NCBI RefSeq assembly: GCF_018141545.1
Contig: NZ_CP064356.1
Span: 1,054,001-1,118,000, forward strand
Length of the DNA: 64,000 nucleotides
Direction: 5' to 3'
Source of the DNA: Miltoncostaea oceani
GTDB lineage: Bacteria > Actinomycetota > Thermoleophilia > Miltoncostaeales > Miltoncostaeaceae
Below the pieces are notes generated by a model, which made no database searches, was not told where the DNA came from, and saw nothing but the letters and a program-made list of their open reading frames with translations. This document shows, in pieces, positions 34,460 to 61,298 of the stretch; position 1 is the stretch's first letter; each line of letters begins with the position of its first letter. The translations under genes were made by a program, and so were the position numbers.

Positions 34460-35863
34460 CTAGTAGCGGCGGGCCCCCGCGTACGACTCGGCATGGTACG
34501 GCTCGTAGAGCGACGAGATCGTCACCGACTCGCCCGGGCCGGGCGCGTGGACGAACTGGCCGTCGCCGGCGTAGAGGCCGACGTGCTCGACGAGGCCCGT
34601 CGGGTCGGAGAAGAAGACGGCGTCGCCCGGCTCGAGGTCGGCGGGGGCGACGGCGGTGCCGACCCGCGACTGGGCGACCACGCCGCGCGGCAGGGTCACG
34701 CCCTGCTCGGCGTAGGCCCACGCCACGAGCCCGGCGGCGTCGAAGCCGCGGGCGGGGGTCTGGCCGCCGCGGACGGTCCGGGTGCCGAGCTCCCCGAGCG
34801 CCTCCTGGGCCGCCGCGGCGCCGAGGCCGGACGATCCGAGGGCGACCTCCGGCACGACCACCGGCAGGGCGGGGGACACGACGGGCGCGCCCCCGGGGCC
34901 GGTGGCGGTCGTGACCGTCGCGGGCGTGGCGGTGGGGGAGGGGGCGGTGGACGCGCCGGCGGTGAACACGGCGGTGGCCGGGTCGCCCCCGAGCTCGGCG
35001 TAGTACGTCGAGACGTTGCGGACCCAGTTGTTGTTCAGCCCCGTCGGGTCGTTGTCGGCGCCGCTCGGCGCCCAGCGGCCCTGGATGGCCGGGATCGTCG
35101 TCAGGCCCGAGCCGGCGTAGAGGTTCCCGCCGAGGTTGCGCGCGGCCGCCCCGATGCCGTCCGACCACGAGGGGTACACGATCCCCGGACCCATCCCGAA
35201 GGGGTTGTGGATGCCCTGCGAGGGGCCGTAGGTGCCGAAGCTCGTCTCCGCGCCGCTGATCGCCACGAGGAAGCGGGGGTCGAGGCCCACGGCGCGCGAC
35301 TCGGTCACGAAGACCGCGCCGAGGCCCGTCAGCGGGCTGGCCTTCGACGCGAGGTAGCCGTCGATCTGCGCGGCGAGGGTGCGGTCGTCGCCGGTGACGG
35401 CCGGGCGCCGCTCGTCGGGGAGCGGGATGACGGCCCCGCCCGCACCGGGGGTCGCCGTGGCGGCGGGCCGCTCGGCGGGGGGCTCGGCGAGCACCACGAC
35501 GGGCCCGTCCGGGTCGTCGCCGGGGCCGGCGGGGGTCGCGAGGGGGTCGTCGTTGGCGGCCTCCTCCTGGGCGGCGGTCTCCTGCGCGTGGCGGGCGGCG
35601 ATGCCCGACTCGAGGGCGATGAGGTCCTCCTTCTGGCGCAGCAGCCGCCGCTCGAGGCGCTCCAGCTCCCGCCGCTCGGCGCCGCCGAGCCGCTCGGCGG
35701 CCGTCCTCGCCTGCGCCAGCTGCGCCGACGTGCGGTCGATGCGGTCGCGCGCGTGGGCCAACTCGGCGGCCGTGGCCGCCACGGCGGGCGCGGCGGGGGC
35801 GGCGAGGAGGGCGATGGCGAGGGTCGCGACGAAGGCGCGCCGCACGGGGAGGCGACGGGGCAT
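34460..35863 (-). CDS. Secreted lysozyme-like + NlpC/P60-like protein with dead NlpC site
   Basis: Signal peptide (1-30), coiled coil (about 33-100), linker, a lysozyme-superfamily/glucosaminidase-like module (about 162-300, with GLDPRFLVAISGAETSFGTYG, likely catalytic Glu206), Pro/Thr linker, then an NlpC/P60-like domain (about 345-465). The NlpC nucleophile motif, normally FDCSGL, reads FDAAGLVAWAY, so the Cys is Ala376. The following His is kept (EHVGLYAGDGQFVHAP). The domain therefore cannot act as a standard Cys endopeptidase and may bind wall peptides or regulate its active neighbour, which is encoded 61 nt upstream on the same strand. The lysozyme-like module is also found in the giant hydrolase at 58117-61298. 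Confidence 0.83.
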   Translation of the reverse strand: MPRRLPVRRAFVATLAIALLAAPAAPAVAATAAELAHARDRIDRTSAQLAQARTAAERLGGAERRELERLERRLLRQKEDLIALESGIAARHAQETAAQEEAANDDPLATPAGPGDDPDGPVVVLAEPPAERPAATATPGAGGAVIPLPDERRPAVTGDDRTLAAQIDGYLASKASPLTGLGAVFVTESRAVGLDPRFLVAISGAETSFGTYGPSQGIHNPFGMGPGIVYPSWSDGIGAAARNLGGNLYAGSGLTTIPAIQGRWAPSGADNDPTGLNNNWVRNVSTYYAELGGDPATAVFTAGASTAPSPTATPATVTTATGPGGAPVVSPALPVVVPEVALGSSGLGAAAAQEALGELGTRTVRGGQTPARGFDAAGLVAWAYAEQGVTLPRGVVAQSRVGTAVAPADLEPGDAVFFSDPTGLVEHVGLYAGDGQFVHAPGPGESVTISSLYEPYHAESYAGARRY

Positions 35864-35924
35864 CCCCTCTATCGTCGGCCCCCGCGCGCCGCCCCTTGAG
35901 GGCGCGGCGCGGGACCGGGGGACC

Positions 35925-37067
35925 CTAGGGGCGGACGGCGCCCTGGTAGTCGCTGCGGCCGCTCATGCTCGAGACCTTCACGACGTCACCGGTCTGCGGT
36001 GCGTGGACGTACTGGCCGCCGCCGATGTAGATGCCCATGTGCCCGAGGTCCGCGCGGTAGAAGACGAGGTCGCCGACCTGGAGGTCGCTGGAGGGGACCT
36101 TCGGGAACGCGGCCCAGATCGCCCCCGTGTAGTGGGGGACGCTCTTGCCGATCTGGGCGTAGGCGTAGGAGGCGAGGCCGCTGCAGTCGAAACCCGACGG
36201 CGACGCGCCACCCCACACATAGGGGACACCCAGGTACTGCATCGCGATGCTCGCCGCGGCGGCGTTGCCGCTGCCACTCGGCAGCGGGGCGCTCGGGGCG
36301 GGTGTCGCGGCGGCGGGGTCGGCCGGGTCGGCGGCGGGCGCCGACGCGGCCGCGGGGGCGGAGGGGGTCGACGCGGCGGCCTCGGCGGCGGCGGCGCGCT
36401 GGCGGGCGAGGCGGGCCTGGGCCTCGGCCTCGGCGGCCTTGCGCTGCTCCTCGGCGCGGATCAGGCCACGCAACTCGGCGCTCGCCGAATCGAGGACCGC
36501 CTGACGCTGGGCGAGCAGACCCTCGATCCGCTCCTTCTCCCGCTCCCGGGCCGCGACGGCCTCGGCCGCCGTCGCCCGGTCCTCCACCAACTGGGCCCTC
36601 AACCGCACCAACGCCGCCTTGTGCTCACGCAACCCACCGACGACCTCGGCGTCCTGGCTGCCGACGCGGTCCAACAGGTCCATCTGGTCGCTGGCGGCGG
36701 CGATCGAGCCGCTGGTGATCAACACCTCCGCAAGGCTCGGCTGCGGCGTCGCGTACAGGCCCCGGAGGCGCTCGGCGAGGGCCTCACGCGACGCCCCCAG
36801 GTCCCGCTCGGTCTGGCGGGTGCGGGCCGTGTTCTCCTCGATCCGGCCGTTCACCTGCTGCAACTCATAGCGGGCCCCGTTGTAGGCCTCGGCGGCGACC
36901 TCGACCTGGGTGTTGTAGCTGTCGAGCTCGGCCTGGAGCTCGGCGACCCGGGCGCGCTGGGCCTCGATCGCGGCCGGCTCGGTGGTGGCGGTCCCCGCGC
37001 CGAACGCCAACAGGGCGGCGAGGACGGCGCAGGCCACGAGGGCCGTGAGGTGTCGCAGGGGTCTCAG
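35925..37067 (-). CDS. Secreted NlpC/P60 endopeptidase with coiled coil (RipA-like), CTG start
   Basis: RipA-like wall endopeptidases cut gamma-D-Glu-diaminopimelate bonds to separate daughter cells. Residues 30-225 form a long coiled coil (AQRARVAELQAELDSYNTQ and similar), followed by an Ala/Pro linker and an intact NlpC/P60 domain with FDCSGLASYAYAQ (Cys295), LGHMGIYIGGGQYVHAP and the third polar residue. CTG 37067 has AGGAG at 9 nt and gives a perfect signal peptide starting RPLRHLTALVACAVLAALL. The GTG at 37133 lies inside the -10 box, and GTG 37037 lacks the basic n-region. The product has 380 residues. Confidence 0.87.
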   Translation of the reverse strand: MRPLRHLTALVACAVLAALLAFGAGTATTEPAAIEAQRARVAELQAELDSYNTQVEVAAEAYNGARYELQQVNGRIEENTARTRQTERDLGASREALAERLRGLYATPQPSLAEVLITSGSIAAASDQMDLLDRVGSQDAEVVGGLREHKAALVRLRAQLVEDRATAAEAVAAREREKERIEGLLAQRQAVLDSASAELRGLIRAEEQRKAAEAEAQARLARQRAAAAEAAASTPSAPAAASAPAADPADPAAATPAPSAPLPSGSGNAAAASIAMQYLGVPYVWGGASPSGFDCSGLASYAYAQIGKSVPHYTGAIWAAFPKVPSSDLQVGDLVFYRADLGHMGIYIGGGQYVHAPQTGDVVKVSSMSGRSDYQGAVRP

Positions 37068-37131
37068 GAAGCAGGTCTCCTGCAGCGGGGACAGGGCGCG
37101 CGAAGCCAGGGCGGCTCCATCCGACCGGCGC

Positions 37132-37137
37132 ACGCTA
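37132..37137 (-). promoter_or_regulatory. -10 box TAGCGT of the NlpC/P60 gene pair
   Basis: On the minus strand TAGCGT predicts a start of transcription near 37125, giving a leader of nearly 60 nt that contains AGGAG before the proposed CTG start. The box overlaps GTG 37133, which argues against that GTG as start. Confidence 0.5.
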
Positions 37138-37221
37138 CCACCGTTCCGCGCGCCCGCACAACGCCGTCGCGCCCGCCCCCCGGTGTTGAAGCCGTCCGTC
37201 CCGCCGAGGATGATGGGGCCC

Positions 37222-38565
37222 GTGAGCCTCCTCCGCGCGCTCGTCGCCGCTGCTCTCGGGGCCGCGATCCTCCTGCCCGCCGCCCTCCTGGGGCAGGCCG
37301 CCCCGCCCTCCGCGCAGGCCCGCGGCTACGCCGCCCTGCTCCCCGGCGGGGCCCAGGGCGGCGCCACCGCGACGACCGGCGGCCCCGCGGAGCGGACCGC
37401 CTCCGTGGGGGGCCTGCGGCCCGCGGGCGGGGGCACCGTCGCCTCCGTATCGGTGCGCGTCGGCGCGTCCTCGGCGGGCACCGGGGCCACCGCCGAGGGG
37501 TCGATCACGGCGTCGGGCCTGCGCCTGCTCGACGGGCGGGTCACCGTCGCGTCGCTGCGCATGGCGGCACGCGCCGGCGACGGGACGGACGCCGGCGCGA
37601 CGGGGCTGACGTCGTCGGGCGCCTCGGGCGTGACCGTCGACGGCGCCCCCGTCCCCGTCGGGCCGGGATCCCGCGTCGCGGTCCCCGGCGTCGGCGCGCT
37701 CGTCTTCTTCGAGACGGTCGCCGACGGCACGGGCGGCCTGCGCGCCAACGCCCTCCGCGTCGAGGTCACCGACCCGGCGGCGGCCGCCGTGATCGGGCAG
37801 CCGTTCGTGATCGGGCACCTCGACCTCGTGGCGGAGCGCGGCGCCGCGCCCGCCGCGGAGGCGCCCGCCGACCCCCCGGCGACGACGCGGCCGGCGGCGC
37901 CCGCCACCGCGCCCCGCGCCGCCGCCGCGCCCGACCCGGCGGCGATCCCGCTGGCGGCGACGCCGAGCCTCGGCCTGCCGGTGCGCCCCGCCCCGCGGGC
38001 CGCGGTCGTGTCGGGCGACGGCTACGTCTTCCCCGTCGTCGGCGACGACGTCGGCTTCACCGACGACTACGCCGCCCCCCGGGCCGGCACCGGGTGGCAC
38101 CACGGCAACGACCTCTTCGCACCCACCGGCACCCCGCTGGTCGCCGTCGCCGACGGCACCCTCTCGCGGGTCGGCGTGAACACCCTCGGCGGCAACCGCC
38201 TGTGGCTCACCGACGACGCCGGCAACGCCTTCTACTACGCCCACCTGTCGGCCTACGCGCCGGCCGCGGTGGAGGGCGCCCGCGTGAGCGCCGGCCAGGT
38301 GATCGGGTTCGTCGGCAACACCGGCCAGGCCATCACCACGCCGCCGCACCTGCACTTCGAGATCCACCCGGCGGCGGGTGACAGCGTCAACCCCTACCCG
38401 TACCTGCTGGCCTGGCAGCGCGGCGGGGACATCCCGCGCGCCTTCGCCCAGGCGGCGACGTCGTCGTCGCCGGCCCCGGCGGCGGGCGCGGTGCTCGTGG
38501 ACGGGGTCCCCGAGGTCGACGTCGCGCCGGCGCCGGCCGACGGGCTCGCCACGCCGGCCTCCTAG
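37222..38565 (+). CDS. Secreted M23 (LytM) metallopeptidase
   Basis: A signal peptide (SLLRALVAAALGAAILLPAA) is followed by a Gly/Ala/Thr-rich beta-domain (about 40-215), a Pro/Ala linker and a LytM/M23 domain (about 265-395). The zinc ligands are visible: the HHGNDLFAPTG motif (His and Asp), FYYAHLSAYAP and the PPHLHFEIHP motif. It should cut peptidoglycan cross-bridges. GTG 37222 is preferred because a GATGAT box ends 7 nt upstream; ATG 37210 and 37213 in the same frame are possible. It is divergent from the NlpC/P60 pair. Its TAG shares CTAG with the converging hydrolase gene. Confidence 0.87.
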   Translation: MSLLRALVAAALGAAILLPAALLGQAAPPSAQARGYAALLPGGAQGGATATTGGPAERTASVGGLRPAGGGTVASVSVRVGASSAGTGATAEGSITASGLRLLDGRVTVASLRMAARAGDGTDAGATGLTSSGASGVTVDGAPVPVGPGSRVAVPGVGALVFFETVADGTGGLRANALRVEVTDPAAAAVIGQPFVIGHLDLVAERGAAPAAEAPADPPATTRPAAPATAPRAAAAPDPAAIPLAATPSLGLPVRPAPRAAVVSGDGYVFPVVGDDVGFTDDYAAPRAGTGWHHGNDLFAPTGTPLVAVADGTLSRVGVNTLGGNRLWLTDDAGNAFYYAHLSAYAPAAVEGARVSAGQVIGFVGNTGQAITTPPHLHFEIHPAAGDSVNPYPYLLAWQRGGDIPRAFAQAATSSSPAPAAGAVLVDGVPEVDVAPAPADGLATPAS

Positions 38566-56306: not shown

Positions 56307-58120
56307 CTCACGACGACGCGGGCCGTCGCCACCGTGGTGGTGCCGTAGCGCAGCACCGCGCGCCACGCGCCCCGCGGCAGCGGACCGGACCCCTTGATGA
56401 ACGCGATCACGAGCGCCGACGGCGGTTTGCGGTCGACCGCCGCGGGCCGGCGCGTGCCGGGGGCGTACCAGCTCACCGTCAGGCGCTTGCCGGGCTTCGG
56501 GCGGGCCGCCATCCGGAAGTGGGCGAAGATGATCGACCGGCCCGTGATGCGGGCGAGCGGCCGCCCGTTGATCTTGGTGCTGAAGTAGGCGCGCGCGGCG
56601 ACGCCCTCGCGGGGCGCCGGCACGACCGCGCGGCGCTCGGCGACGGGCAGCAGCCCAGGGCCGGTGCCGACCTCGGCGACGCGCACCAGGTAGCGGCCGG
56701 GCAGCAGGGTCGGCGGGAGGGTCAGCCGGCGGGTGAACGGGCCGGCGGCGGTCGCCCGGAACGTCCGCGTCACCAGCGCCCTGCCCTTCCCGTTCGCCCG
56801 CAGCACGCGCATCCGCAGCACGGCGGGGCGGGTGACGGCGCCGGTGAGGACGAGGCGCCCGCGCAGGCGGCTCGCGGTCCAGCGGTTCTGCACGGCGGCG
56901 CCCGCGATCGTCAGGCCGGGGGCGGGCGGCGGCGGCTGGACCGTGAACGGCAGCGCACCGGAGGTGCCGCCCCCCGTCGGGCCGGTGACGACCGTGACCT
57001 GCGCCGTGCCGGCGCCGGCGAGGTCGCTCGCCGGGATGGCGGCCGTGAGGCGGGTGGAGCTGACGAAGGTCGTCGCGCGGTCCTGACCCTGCCAGCGGAC
57101 GCGCGAGCGGAGGGTGAAGCCGGCGCCGTCCACCGTCAGCGTCAGCGCGGCCGAGCCGGCGGGCGCCGTCGACGGGCTGATCGCCGAGAGGAACGGGAGC
57201 GCCGCGACGGTCTGCCAGGAGGGGTTCGTGTCGGCGCTGGGGCTCGTGGTGAGCTGCACCGGGGCGTTCTCGGTGCCGGGGTACCCCGTCGTCCAGATGT
57301 CCCAGTTGGAGGTGCGGAAGCTGGCGAACGCGATCCGGGCGCCGTCGGGCGACCACGAGGGCGTCACCGCCCCGTTCGGGTCGTTGGTGTGCTGGCGCAG
57401 GTCCGTCTCGACGGGCGGGGTGCCGACGGGCGTTCCCGCGGCCGGCAGCGAGAAGATGTTCGACTGGGACCCCGGGCGGACGCTGTCGAACGCGATCCGT
57501 GAGCCGTCGGGCGACCAGCTCGGGGAGTTGCCCGGCGTCGTCGTCACCTGGCGGGCGTCCACCTCGGTGCCGCTCGCCGCGACCCGGTGGATGTTCCCCA
57601 TGCTGCGGCCGCTGCGGAAGGCGATGGCGGTCCCGTCCGGCGACCACGCCGGCTCGTCGTCGAAGAAGGCGCCGTTGTTGGTGTGCTGGATCAAACCGGT
57701 GCCGTCGAGGCGCGCCGAGAAGATCTCGAGGTCGCTGCCGTCGCGGAGGGACGCCCAGGCGATGCGGGTGCCGTCGGGCGACCAGGCGGGGTCGATGTCG
57801 GCCCCCGGCGTCGTCGTGAACGGCACGACGTTGGTGCCGTCGGCGGCGGCGATGAAGACGTCCTCCTCGCCGTTGTCGTTGCGCGTGAACGCGAACCGGG
57901 TGCCGTCCGGCGACCATGCGGCGTCGTCGTCGGCCTCGACGGTGGAGGTGCGCTGCGTCTCCGGGTCGCCGCCCGGCGGCATGGTGTAGATGTCGCCGCT
58001 GGTGGTGCGGGCGCTGGTGAAGGCGATCAGGCCGTCGAGGCCGGGCGTCGTCGCGAGGCCGGGCGCGGCGAGCGCCCCGGCGGCGGCGAGCGCGCCGGCC
58101 GCGAGGAACGCCCGCCTCAC
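56303..58120 (-). CDS. Secreted PD40 propeller with TIG domain, paralogue 3
   Basis: A 605-residue secreted protein with signal peptide (RRAFLAAGALAAAGALAAPG), the start TPGLDGLIAFTSARTTSGD, about seven PD40 repeats such as PAWSPDGTRIAWASLRDG, a TIG domain (LTLTVDGAGFTLRSRVRWQG), a beta-domain and the C-terminal domain with SIIFAHFRMAARPKPGKRL. GTG 58120 overlaps the stop of the giant hydrolase gene, so translation is coupled. Its cotranscription with wall hydrolase genes suggests a role in binding or presenting envelope components. Confidence 0.83.
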   Translation of the reverse strand: MRRAFLAAGALAAAGALAAPGLATTPGLDGLIAFTSARTTSGDIYTMPPGGDPETQRTSTVEADDDAAWSPDGTRFAFTRNDNGEEDVFIAAADGTNVVPFTTTPGADIDPAWSPDGTRIAWASLRDGSDLEIFSARLDGTGLIQHTNNGAFFDDEPAWSPDGTAIAFRSGRSMGNIHRVAASGTEVDARQVTTTPGNSPSWSPDGSRIAFDSVRPGSQSNIFSLPAAGTPVGTPPVETDLRQHTNDPNGAVTPSWSPDGARIAFASFRTSNWDIWTTGYPGTENAPVQLTTSPSADTNPSWQTVAALPFLSAISPSTAPAGSAALTLTVDGAGFTLRSRVRWQGQDRATTFVSSTRLTAAIPASDLAGAGTAQVTVVTGPTGGGTSGALPFTVQPPPPAPGLTIAGAAVQNRWTASRLRGRLVLTGAVTRPAVLRMRVLRANGKGRALVTRTFRATAAGPFTRRLTLPPTLLPGRYLVRVAEVGTGPGLLPVAERRAVVPAPREGVAARAYFSTKINGRPLARITGRSIIFAHFRMAARPKPGKRLTVSWYAPGTRRPAAVDRKPPSALVIAFIKGSGPLPRGAWRAVLRYGTTTVATARVVVR

Positions 58121-61100
58121 CGGGCCCCCCCGGCGGACAGCAGCGCGCGCGCCTCCTCGAGTCGCAGCTGGTAGCGGCCCCGGTACTGCTCGGCGGGTCT
58201 CTCGACGTCCGCGATCCACTCGCCGTAGCGCGCCGGGTCGGTGCCGAAGGCGCTGTACCCCTCGGCGAGGCGCTTCTCCTTGAGGGCGACCGCGTGGTCG
58301 ATGAACCACTTCATCTGCAGCTCCGGGTTGTCCGCGTATCCGGCGTACTCGCCGCGGTCCCAGACGCTGACGCGCATCTGGAAGAACCCGAGGGAGTCCG
58401 CGTGGCCGTGGTCGAGGTTTCTCAGGCCACTCTCCACCAGCCCCGCCATCACCGGCAACTCGGGCGGGAGGCCGGCGGCCTGGGCGCGGCGGGCCATCCA
58501 CATGGCGACCTGCTCCTTCGGGGCGGCGTCCCCGGGGTATGCGTCGGCGGCGGCCGAGAGGTCGACCGCCGGGGGTGGCGCCGACGGCGCGGCGGGATCG
58601 GCGGGCGGGACCCCCGGGGCGGCCGGGGCCCCCGGCGTGACGGGGGGCGCCGGGGTCACGGCGGGCGGGGCCGTGGCGGGGGGCGCCGGTGGCGAGGCCG
58701 GGGCGGGCACGGCCGGCAGCACCCGGGCGGTGTTGGGTCGCGCGATGGCGGGCCCGTCGTCCGGCGCGGCGGGACCGGGCACCGCGCCGAACACGGCGCT
58801 GGCCCGCCCCGCGCTCGGCGGGCCCTCGGGGGCGGCGGAGGCCGGCGGGGGCGCGGCGGCGACGGAGGGGGCCGGGGCGACGGGCGCCGGGGCCGATGCC
58901 GGTGCCGGTGCCGGCGTGACGGGGGCGGGGGGGACCGGGGCGGCGACCGGCGCGGGGGGCGGGGCGGCCTGGCCGGCGGGCGTCGCGATCGACCCGTCGG
59001 GGTCCCCGCCGAGCTCCCCGTAGAGGATCCGGACGTTGCGGAGCCAGTTCGAGTTGAGGTTCGTCGGGTCGTTCGCGGTGCCGACCGGCGCGTAGCGCGC
59101 CTGGATCTCCGGGAACGTGTCGAGGCCGTCGTCGATGTACCCGGTGCGCAGGCCGCGCGCGACCGTCGAGATGTTCTCCTCCCAGCTCGGGAACGGCTTG
59201 TGCGGTCCCCACCCGAACGCGTTGTTGATCGACACGGCGCCCGGGTCGGAGCCGAGGGAGCTCTCGGCGCGGGCGATCGCCACCAGCGCCCGCGGGTCGA
59301 TGCCGTTGAGGCGCCCCTCGCGCACGAACACCGCGCCGTAGCCCTCGAGGGGCGCGCCCGGGTTCTTGCGGGCGATCCAGGCGTCGAGCTGCGCGGCGAG
59401 CTGCTGGTCCTGGGGGCTGAGGCTGGCGAGCGCCTCGGCGGGGGCGAGGGCGCCCGCTCCCGAGGGCGCGGGGGCCGGGGGCGCCGACGGGTCCACGGGC
59501 GGGGTGGCGGCCACGGGCGCGGGCGCCTGCGACGGCGCCGGGGCGACGGGCGCCGGGGCCGGCGCCACCGGGGCGGGGGCGGGAGCGGGCGCCACCGGGG
59601 CGGGGGCGGGAGCGGGCGCCACCGGGGCGGGGGCGGGGGCGACGGCTGGGGGGGGGCGGGCGCGCCCGGCGCGGCGGCGGGGGCGGGCGCGGGGACGTCG
59701 CCCGCCCGGTAGCCGACCTCGATGCGGTTGCGCAGCCCGGGCTCGGTGAAGAAGCCGTCGCCCTTGATGCGCCAGGGGGTGCCGACCTCCGACGGGCGCC
59801 CCGACGGGTCGAGCGCCGCCAGCTCCTCCGCGAGGTCGCGGGCGTCGACGTTCGTCGGGTCGACCGGCTTGCCGTTGACGCTGCTGATCACGATGCGGCT
59901 CACGCCGCCCTCGGTCTCGACGGAGGTGATGCCGATCTCGTAGCGGTCGGAGACGTTCGCCAGCATGGGGATCGCGCGCGGGTCGAGGTCCTTCGCCAGC
60001 AGCTCCGACGCCACCGCCGGGGCCGCCACGACGTTCGGGTCGGCGACCACGTCCTCGGGCCGCAGCGCCACCGGCACGGGGGCCGGCGCGGCGACCGGCA
60101 CCGGCGGGGCGCCGGGCACCGGCGCCCCCGCGACCGGCGGCACGCCCCCGACGGGCACCGGCGCGGCCCCGCCCCCCTGGTACAGCGCCTGGAGGTAGGG
60201 GAGGGGGTCCTCCATGTTCGACACGTTGTAGCCGCCGGACAGCGACTTCCAGATCTCGATGTGGGTGTGCTCGGGCCCGTCGGTCCAGGGGCTCGTCACC
60301 GCGATCTGGGTGCCCGCCGCGACCTGCTGGCCGACGGTCACGGAGCCGGGCGTCACGTGCCGGAACACCCACACCTTGCCGTCGGCGCCCTGCAGCTTCA
60401 CGGTGCCGCCGAAGATCTGGCCGGAGGTGCCCCGCGACGCCCGCACCTCGACGATCGTCCCGGCGAACGGGGCGCGGATCGGGGCGTTCTCCTCCGTGAA
60501 GAAGTCGTACGCGGCGTGGTAGCTGCCGCCGGCCCCCGGCGCCCCCTCGGCGTCGCGGCCGTTGAACTCCGACGCGTGCAGCTTGCCGCCCGCGTTCGTG
60601 TTGTTCATGAGGGACGGGTCGACCGGCTGCACGCTCGGCACGACGGGCGCCGCGACGGGGGCGTCCGCGAACGCCTCGATGCGGTCCTCGCCGTGCCCGG
60701 GCGGCGACGAGGCGAACCGCTGCGGGTCGTCCCCCGTCGCGACCGCCATGCCGGAGCCCCCGTCGACGCGGGCGGCGAACAGGCGCCGGGAGGGGGCGCT
60801 GCGCCCCTCCGAGCGGCACACCGGGCACAGCACGGAGCCGAGCGGGGCGGGGCCGCCGCACGAGTCGCACTTCGCGAACTGCGGGGGCTTGTCGGGGTCC
60901 TTCAGCAGGCAGACGGGGCACGACGGGACGTCCGCGGCGTCCGAGAGGCCCGCCGGCGCGACGTCGGCGGAGTCCTGCACGGCGGGCATCGCCCGGGACA
61001 GGGCCGCGGCCGCCTCCCACCGCCCCGCCCCCTCGTCGCCGCGGACGTGCTGCACGAGCTCGGCGATGCCGACCCCCTCGGCCGCGGCGGCGAGCAGCAC

Positions 61101-61298
61101 CCCCGCCAGGCTCGACCGCGACTCGCGCACCTCGAGCGTCTGGAACGCGCGTCCGCCGTCGCGCCCCAGCTCGGCGGCGACCTCGTCGAGCTCCATCGCC
61201 CGGCACGCCGCCGCCGGGTCGCGGCGGAACTCCGACCGGAAGCGGTCGTCGGTCAGGAGCCGCGCCAGCATCTGCGCGGCGGCGCTATCCGACGGCAC
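58117..61298 (-). CDS. Giant wall hydrolase with leader-like N-terminus, frameshifted at a C9 run
   Basis: Domains in order: a leader-like segment without signal peptide (1-85, LARLLTDDRFRSEFRRDPAA, similar to Nif11/Os1348-type RiPP leader regions); zinc-ribbon Cys pairs (127, 130, 144, 147, 158, 161); an M23 LytM domain (about 250-350, HAAYD and HTHIEI); a beta-domain; Pro/Ala repeats; a lysozyme-like module (IDPRALVAIARAESSLGSD); a long Pro-rich linker; and a lytic transglycosylase domain (GLVESGLRNLDHGHADSLGF). The frame breaks at the G9 run 59648-59656; ten Gs would join both halves. GTG 61298 overlaps the previous gene. The product is over 1050 residues if repaired. The leader assignment is inference. 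Confidence 0.75.
59561..59641. repeat. Three tandem 27-bp repeats
   Basis: The unit GGCGCCACCGGGGCGGGGGC plus GGGAGCG is repeated at 59561-59587, 59588-59614 and 59615-59641, the last with one change. On the coding strand each unit encodes a nine-residue Ala/Pro/Val repeat. Such repeats readily expand or contract. Confidence 0.85.
59648..59656. other. Homopolymer of nine Gs at a frameshift point
   Basis: On the minus coding strand this is a C9 tract. Upstream sequence is coherent in one frame and downstream sequence in another; adding one base, or removing two, restores a single frame. It is either an assembly or sequencing length error or a slippage-based phase switch. Confidence 0.8.

Follow-up and report, generated by a model that had tools for sequence, protein, structure and literature searches.

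A GH73-linked NlpC/P60 domain without its catalytic cysteine, encoded beside a RipC-like endopeptidase gene in Miltoncostaeaceae

Some wall-hydrolase domains have lost catalysis and yet persisted for long periods; the known cases, among them EnvC, NlpD and RipD, act as regulators or binders. RipD of M. tuberculosis (Rv1566c; structures 4jxb and 4lj1) has a peptidoglycan-binding NlpC domain in which the triad reads Ala-Ser-Glu, according to a review (PMC12067865). The degenerate M23 wall-hydrolase domains of EnvC and NlpD are presented as amidase activators and protein-interaction modules in PMC9662197, and a review names DUF1175 as an inactive, peptidoglycan-binding family among the NlpC/P60-like proteins. 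RipD and DUF1175 were the dead peptidoglycan-binding relatives met in the literature consulted. Ecd09610 of C. difficile combines GH73 and NlpC domains in one protein, with intact NlpC catalytic residues (PMC9405191). Dead NlpC/P60 domains are already known; the one described here is linked to a GH73-like domain, keeps a pair of histidines and lies beside an active RipC-like gene. This combination was not met in the open-access literature searched, where none of nine papers containing the word Miltoncostaea has NlpC or peptidoglycan in its title.

Both genes are encoded on the minus strand of the window, the 64,000-nucleotide stretch of the Miltoncostaea oceani genome that was analysed. The upstream gene (35925..37133) is transcribed first and hence has the higher coordinates; its reading frame and Pfam matches indicate a RipC-like coiled coil and an NlpC/P60 endopeptidase domain with an intact motif. 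The boundary at 37067 given in the sequence-only reading falls on a CTG codon; a GTG start at 37133 is used here, although the start codon is uncertain. The downstream gene (34460..35863) begins 61 bp past the upstream stop and, by reading frame, translation and Pfam, encodes 467 amino acids comprising a GH73/lysozyme-like domain, a linker and a dead NlpC/P60 domain. Both NlpC/P60 domains pass the Pfam NLPC_P60 cut-off of 23 bits (91.8 bits upstream, 74.1 bits downstream). FDCSGL in the upstream gene (Cys codon TGC at 36185-36183) and FDAAGL in the next one (Ala376 codon GCC at 34738-34736, adjoined by Ala377) were read from the sequence as first reported, and the histidine region said to be kept in the downstream domain is indeed there, as His427 (HVGLY) and His439 (FVHAP). 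A dead domain with a kept fold, a lysozyme-like module and a tandem layout had also been proposed, and all were confirmed. Six of the seven NlpC/P60 matches in the window's genome (G000) read FDCSGL, the sole exception being the downstream gene. A promoter and terminator scan returned 0 and 0 sites, a result of little weight at such GC content.

The downstream protein is like RipD in being an actinobacterial wall protein with a non-catalytic NlpC/P60 fold in which Ala replaces Cys (PMC12067865). RipD has also lost its His and carries pentapeptide repeats, whereas the downstream protein mostly keeps the His-His pair, has lost the loop before the Cys and joins its dead domain to a GH73-like enzyme; neither a GH73 domain nor an active NlpC neighbour is described in the review passages on RipD (PMC12067865). 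The NCBIfam RipD model gives the downstream protein 53.5 of 215 bits, which misses the cut-off. Ecd09610 shares the union of a glucosaminidase and an NlpC/P60 domain in one protein (compare 4hpe and 4fdy), and its GH73 domain (8yxk) is the structure nearest to the downstream first domain, but it retains the NlpC catalytic residues (PMC9405191) and the downstream gene lacks the Cys. A GH73-like domain with an intact NlpC domain is still found in two relatives (G006 and G014). EnvC and NlpD likewise keep a dead wall-hydrolase domain; theirs has the M23 fold and activates amidases, whereas the downstream domain has the NlpC/P60 fold.

For the upstream gene, the closest likeness is to RipC-type FtsEX-dependent endopeptidases. 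Its NlpC/P60 domain with FDCSGL was placed at 35955..36260 (minus strand, Cys at 36183-36185), and a long helical hairpin, the coiled coil, corresponds to 36372..36980 on the same strand (AlphaFold2 helices 5-81 and 97-207). The Cys and His are invariant in all 17 upstream proteins aligned, and a profile of these proteins matches RipC chain 8idc over both the coiled coil and the NlpC domain (E 2.7e-33), with a weak match to EnvC over the coiled coil only (E 4.5e-5). However, the NCBIfam RipC model scores 108.8 of 425 bits, below its cut-off, and we therefore call the protein RipC-like and go no further. The coiled coil suggests that the enzyme may be controlled by FtsEX; the window's genome has two matches to the FtsX extracellular domain, both elsewhere than the locus. 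Two further RipC-like NlpC genes were found in this genome (C1 3223986 and 3169364; L141 and L142), one of which groups very closely in the tree with the upstream gene of the window, and among the matches listed no GH73-like match lies beside them.

The downstream protein has a signal-peptide-like start, judged by eye, followed by a short coiled-coil-like region (35549..35773, minus strand; also by eye, limits approximate) into which the tblastn matches of several relatives extend. The GH73/lysozyme-like domain occupies 34973..35374 (minus strand) and the dead NlpC/P60 domain 34463..34822 (minus strand; Ala376 at 34736-34738, His427 at 34583-34585, His439 at 34547-34549). Assignment of the first domain to GH73 is based on its fold and a conserved Glu, and the Pfam cut-off is missed: PF01832 scores 16.8 bits against a cut-off of 30.2, and three relatives scanned gave 23 bits, 19.6 bits and no match. 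Structure matches include 8yxk (Z 17.4) and LytB 7pj3 (Z 13.1). Glu206 (35246-35248) is invariant in the alignment of 14 orthologues and aligns with the ET-motif Glu of the GH73 structure 8yxk; we take it to be the catalytic Glu. Because Glu206 is kept in 14/14 and the domain superposes on GH73 enzymes, the downstream protein probably cuts glycan. With this residue invariant, a dead NlpC domain does not imply an inactive protein, and a glucosaminidase that carries a dead appendage is more likely than a pure binding partner. GH73-like domains also occur in several other proteins of the window's genome, where the downstream protein has at least 14 matches, NlpC matches included.

Orthologues, defined as single-frame matches that cover the two domains, were searched for in 42 genomes of the family (an order-level search covered the same 42) and found in 14, including one cut by a contig start (G017) and one cut by a contig end (G014). 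The Cys is absent from 12 of the 14, spread over five genus codes. The position is Ala in four (G000, G019, G009, G010), Asp in seven (G020, G021, G011, G012, G001, G002, G003), Pro in one (G017) and Cys in two (G006, G014), the last belonging to two further genera and both keeping YVWGG. What is common is thus the absence of Cys and not the Ala whose conservation the sequence-only reading had proposed to check, since Ala is found in only 4/14. That reading had also held that orthologues with Cys would point to a recent mutation; such orthologues exist in two other genera only and not in the window's own genus, whose four genomes have Ala (G000, G019) or Asp (G020, G021). By this distribution, the loss of the Cys is old and shared, not recent. 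A recent mutation was rejected on the 12/14 count, which includes the three other genomes of the window's genus, and a single sequencing error was rejected because turning a Cys codon into GCC needs at least two changes and the adjoining Ser is also lost. All 12 dead copies are free of stops and 11 of them end in an ARR-type tail. In G018, which has the same neighbourhood, the downstream gene stops after the GH73-like domain, and the plus-strand frames of 1.9 kb translated at the locus held no NlpC remnant. In five other genomes (G004, G007, G008, G013, G015) the upstream gene is present together with a flanking one, and no downstream gene was seen in the stretch taken.

The 12 dead copies were compared with 43 Cys-bearing NlpC domains drawn from the same loci and from paralogues. 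All 12 have lost the Cys, the Ser after it and both the Tyr and the Trp of YVWGG, and the loop before the Cys is shortened in seven; the Asp preceding the Cys is retained in eight. On the other side of the cleft, His427 (HVG motif) is kept in 11/12 (Arg in G017) and the third residue, His439, in 10/12 (Asn in G009, Gln in G019); both are present in all seven copies in which Asp replaces the Cys. Twelve further positions (A355, G373, P392, G413, D414, F418, G429, Y431, G433, G435, A440 and V447) are kept in 12/12. As a candidate C40 member, then, the downstream domain has the fold and profile, the His and the third polar residue, and lacks the Cys. In the alignment, the nucleophile side (YVWGG loop, Cys, Ser) is evidently decayed and the His side and fold core are evidently kept. 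An AlphaFold2 model built on the 14-row alignment (pTM 0.48, so that domain placement is uncertain) gives the dead domain a pLDDT mostly near 90, which drops below 50 at residues 366-370 in the former loop. The best PDB match to this part of the model is 7cfl (Z 18.9), and the nearest solved structures are NlpC/P60 enzymes.

Selection on the dead domain was examined in eight pairs by the Nei-Gojobori method, with Fisher tests on six of the eight. In four pairs dN/dS was low: 0.15 (G020-G021), 0.20 (G009-G010), and 0.10 and 0.14 for the two g2 pairs (G001-G003 and G002-G003), each with a Fisher p of at most 2.7e-8. The ratio was 0.52 for G011-G012, and the three pairs with G000 gave 0.60, 0.90 and 0.96 (p 0.03 for G000-G020 and 0.9 for G000-G019), ratios that are probably inflated by GC-rich third positions and early synonymous saturation. 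The dN of the dead domain exceeds that of the GH73-like domain 2 to 2.4-fold in the G000 pairs and 4.7-fold in G020-G021, where it is 0.047, against 0.053 for the linker and 0.123 for the upstream active domain; in the only Cys-bearing pair, G006-G014, both domains have the same dN (0.25 and 0.25). Fold-core sites are more conserved than others (p<0.05) in six of ten dead-copy pairs, which are not independent of one another, and loop 362-378 does not differ from other sites in any of the ten. The corresponding loop of the upstream gene is identical at 16/16 positions in all five pairs. Judged from these substitution patterns, selection preserves the fold of the dead domain in several genera, with a looser hold in the window's genus.

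The age of the loss was approached with trees. In a tree of the downstream gene with the trait columns left out, one change between Cys and no Cys is needed, and the Cys-bearing rows fall together (100/99). A species tree from RpoB and DnaG (21 genomes, LG+G4; G003 gave neither marker) likewise needs one change and groups G006 and G014 at 96/99 with G027, a genome with no match spanning both domains. The earliest branches of this tree are genomes without the downstream gene. Two changes are required on the upstream-protein tree, where exactly the two Cys-bearing rows sit on long branches. A count of changes alone cannot separate loss from gain; we read the direction as a loss, given that the other 41 NlpC domains compared all carry the Cys.

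Around the two genes, a recurrent order is seen in many relatives: an M23 peptidase, the upstream gene, the downstream gene and then three flanking genes, which from the window sequence were judged to be cobalamin adenosyltransferase-like, CAP-like and CCA-adding-enzyme-like. In the window the M23 peptidase is a divergent neighbour (36982..38565, plus strand; PF01551, 74.5 bits) with a probable start near 37210; the stretches examined of the g2 genomes and G017 had no M23 match. Of the 14 genomes, 12 show both genes, the contigs of G002 and G017 beginning at the downstream gene; the two are neighbours at all 12 of these loci and lie within about 0.4 kb of each other in nine. In G009, G010 and G012 the gap is roughly 1.3-1.9 kb (the gene start in G009 is unsure), and in G010 and G012 it contains an opposite-strand gene, by eye EamA-like and antiporter-like. 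An exact operon partnership is weakened by these gaps. Elsewhere in the window, at 58117-61298 (minus strand), an M23 part lies in a different reading frame from a second GH73-like part with its C-terminal segment, the switch falling around a Pro/Ala-rich repeat; it could be a frameshift mutation, a sequencing error or slippage. The M23 and GH73-like halves share one frame in G019 (L137 1096-4098).

We favor, at a probability of about 0.6, a reading in which an enzyme with both glucosaminidase and endopeptidase activity turned into a glucosaminidase whose C-terminal module is non-catalytic, with peptide cutting falling to the neighbour. The ancestral downstream protein would have been a GH73-like glucosaminidase joined to a D,L-endopeptidase, the order bifunctional-then-dead being our inference. 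In an ancestor of several Miltoncostaeaceae genera, its peptidase half would have lost the YVWGG loop, the Cys and the Ser, presumably once the neighbour sufficed for peptide cutting. That half would then have become a module that retained the His side of the cleft within an NlpC/P60 fold and may give the glucosaminidase a scaffold for contacts with the wall or with a protein. The present-day protein would be secreted and GH73-active, leaving peptide cutting at the locus to the upstream RipC-like endopeptidase. Both uses of the dead domain, contact with the wall or with a protein, are plausible because RipD and EnvC/NlpD provide precedents. Counting against this reading are the weak constraint in the window's genus, the ratio of 0.52 in G011-G012, a dead domain that changes as fast as the linker in G020-G021, the loss of the domain in G018, the five genomes in which no downstream gene was seen, the two changes in the upstream tree and the sub-threshold PF01832 score.

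The strongest alternative, clearly less probable and overlapping with the favored reading as a special form of it, is that the dead domain is a RipD-like wall-binding module that holds peptide stems uncut. The retained His side of the cleft is consistent with this, as are the RipD precedent (PMC12067865) and the inactive peptidoglycan-binding DUF1175, and the model of the dead domain superposes on RipD 4jxb with Z 14.9. Active enzymes, however, outscore RipD as matches, and the Tyr and Trp of YVWGG are lost in every dead copy with the loop shortened in seven, which probably leaves the former peptide site damaged. It is rather unlikely, though kept alive by the decay in the window's genus, that the domain is a functionless, decaying relic, redundant with the upstream enzyme and released from selection. 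The accelerated dN relative to the GH73-like domain fits such decay, as do the G018 gene that persists without an NlpC domain and the five genomes with no downstream gene in the stretch taken. Against a relic, 12/12 dead copies are free of stops, 11 end in the ARR-type tail, the fold-core residues are kept and dN/dS is 0.10-0.20 in four pairs, and the single change on the species tree suggests that the dead domain has been retained across several genera.

A role of the downstream protein as a pseudoenzyme that regulates the upstream endopeptidase, or the FtsEX-like control over it, seems unlikely. The neighbouring position of the genes in 12/12 visible loci, the match of the upstream protein to RipC of the FtsEX complex and the degenerate amidase activators EnvC and NlpD (PMC9662197) speak for such a role. 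Against it, the genes stand roughly 1.3-1.9 kb apart in three genomes with an opposite-strand gene between them in two, the upstream gene is retained where no downstream gene was seen, and a GH73 domain that is probably active fits a pure regulator less well. In a further reading, more doubtful still, the dead domain would use its conserved pair of histidines, frequently accompanied by Asp where the Cys once stood, to bind a ligand, a metal or the RipC-like neighbour, and would thereby couple glycan cutting to FtsEX-RipC-like control of peptide cutting. Continued peptidase activity with another nucleophile is very improbable even with both His kept in most dead copies, for the Cys position holds Ala, Asp or Pro, the adjoining Ser was rejected as a candidate because it is gone from all 12, and the listed positions of loop 362-378 include no Ser, Thr or Cys common to the dead copies.

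The locus offers a natural series, with the NlpC domain active in two genera, dead in five genus codes and gone in one genome, and the downstream gene unseen in five, which makes the purpose of a dead NlpC/P60 domain directly testable among close homologues. Outside the family, the two-domain query was run against 399 genomes of the class and 396 of the phylum, both samples with family members (threshold E <= 1e-30, best five candidates scored per genome). Among the matches listed, only that of G053 (52-307) reaches well into both domains; those of G198 and G238 span 19-254 and 24-245. The G053 protein, from another family of the class (L135 2790-3785), has an SLT-like domain (by eye) and an NlpC domain with intact FDCSGL, and ends in a CGARRYA tail; it is a lysozyme-fold and NlpC pairing with a different first domain. 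In G039, of the small-genome genus g12, a SpoIID domain is fused to an NlpC/P60 domain with an intact motif (L055 4107-5399).
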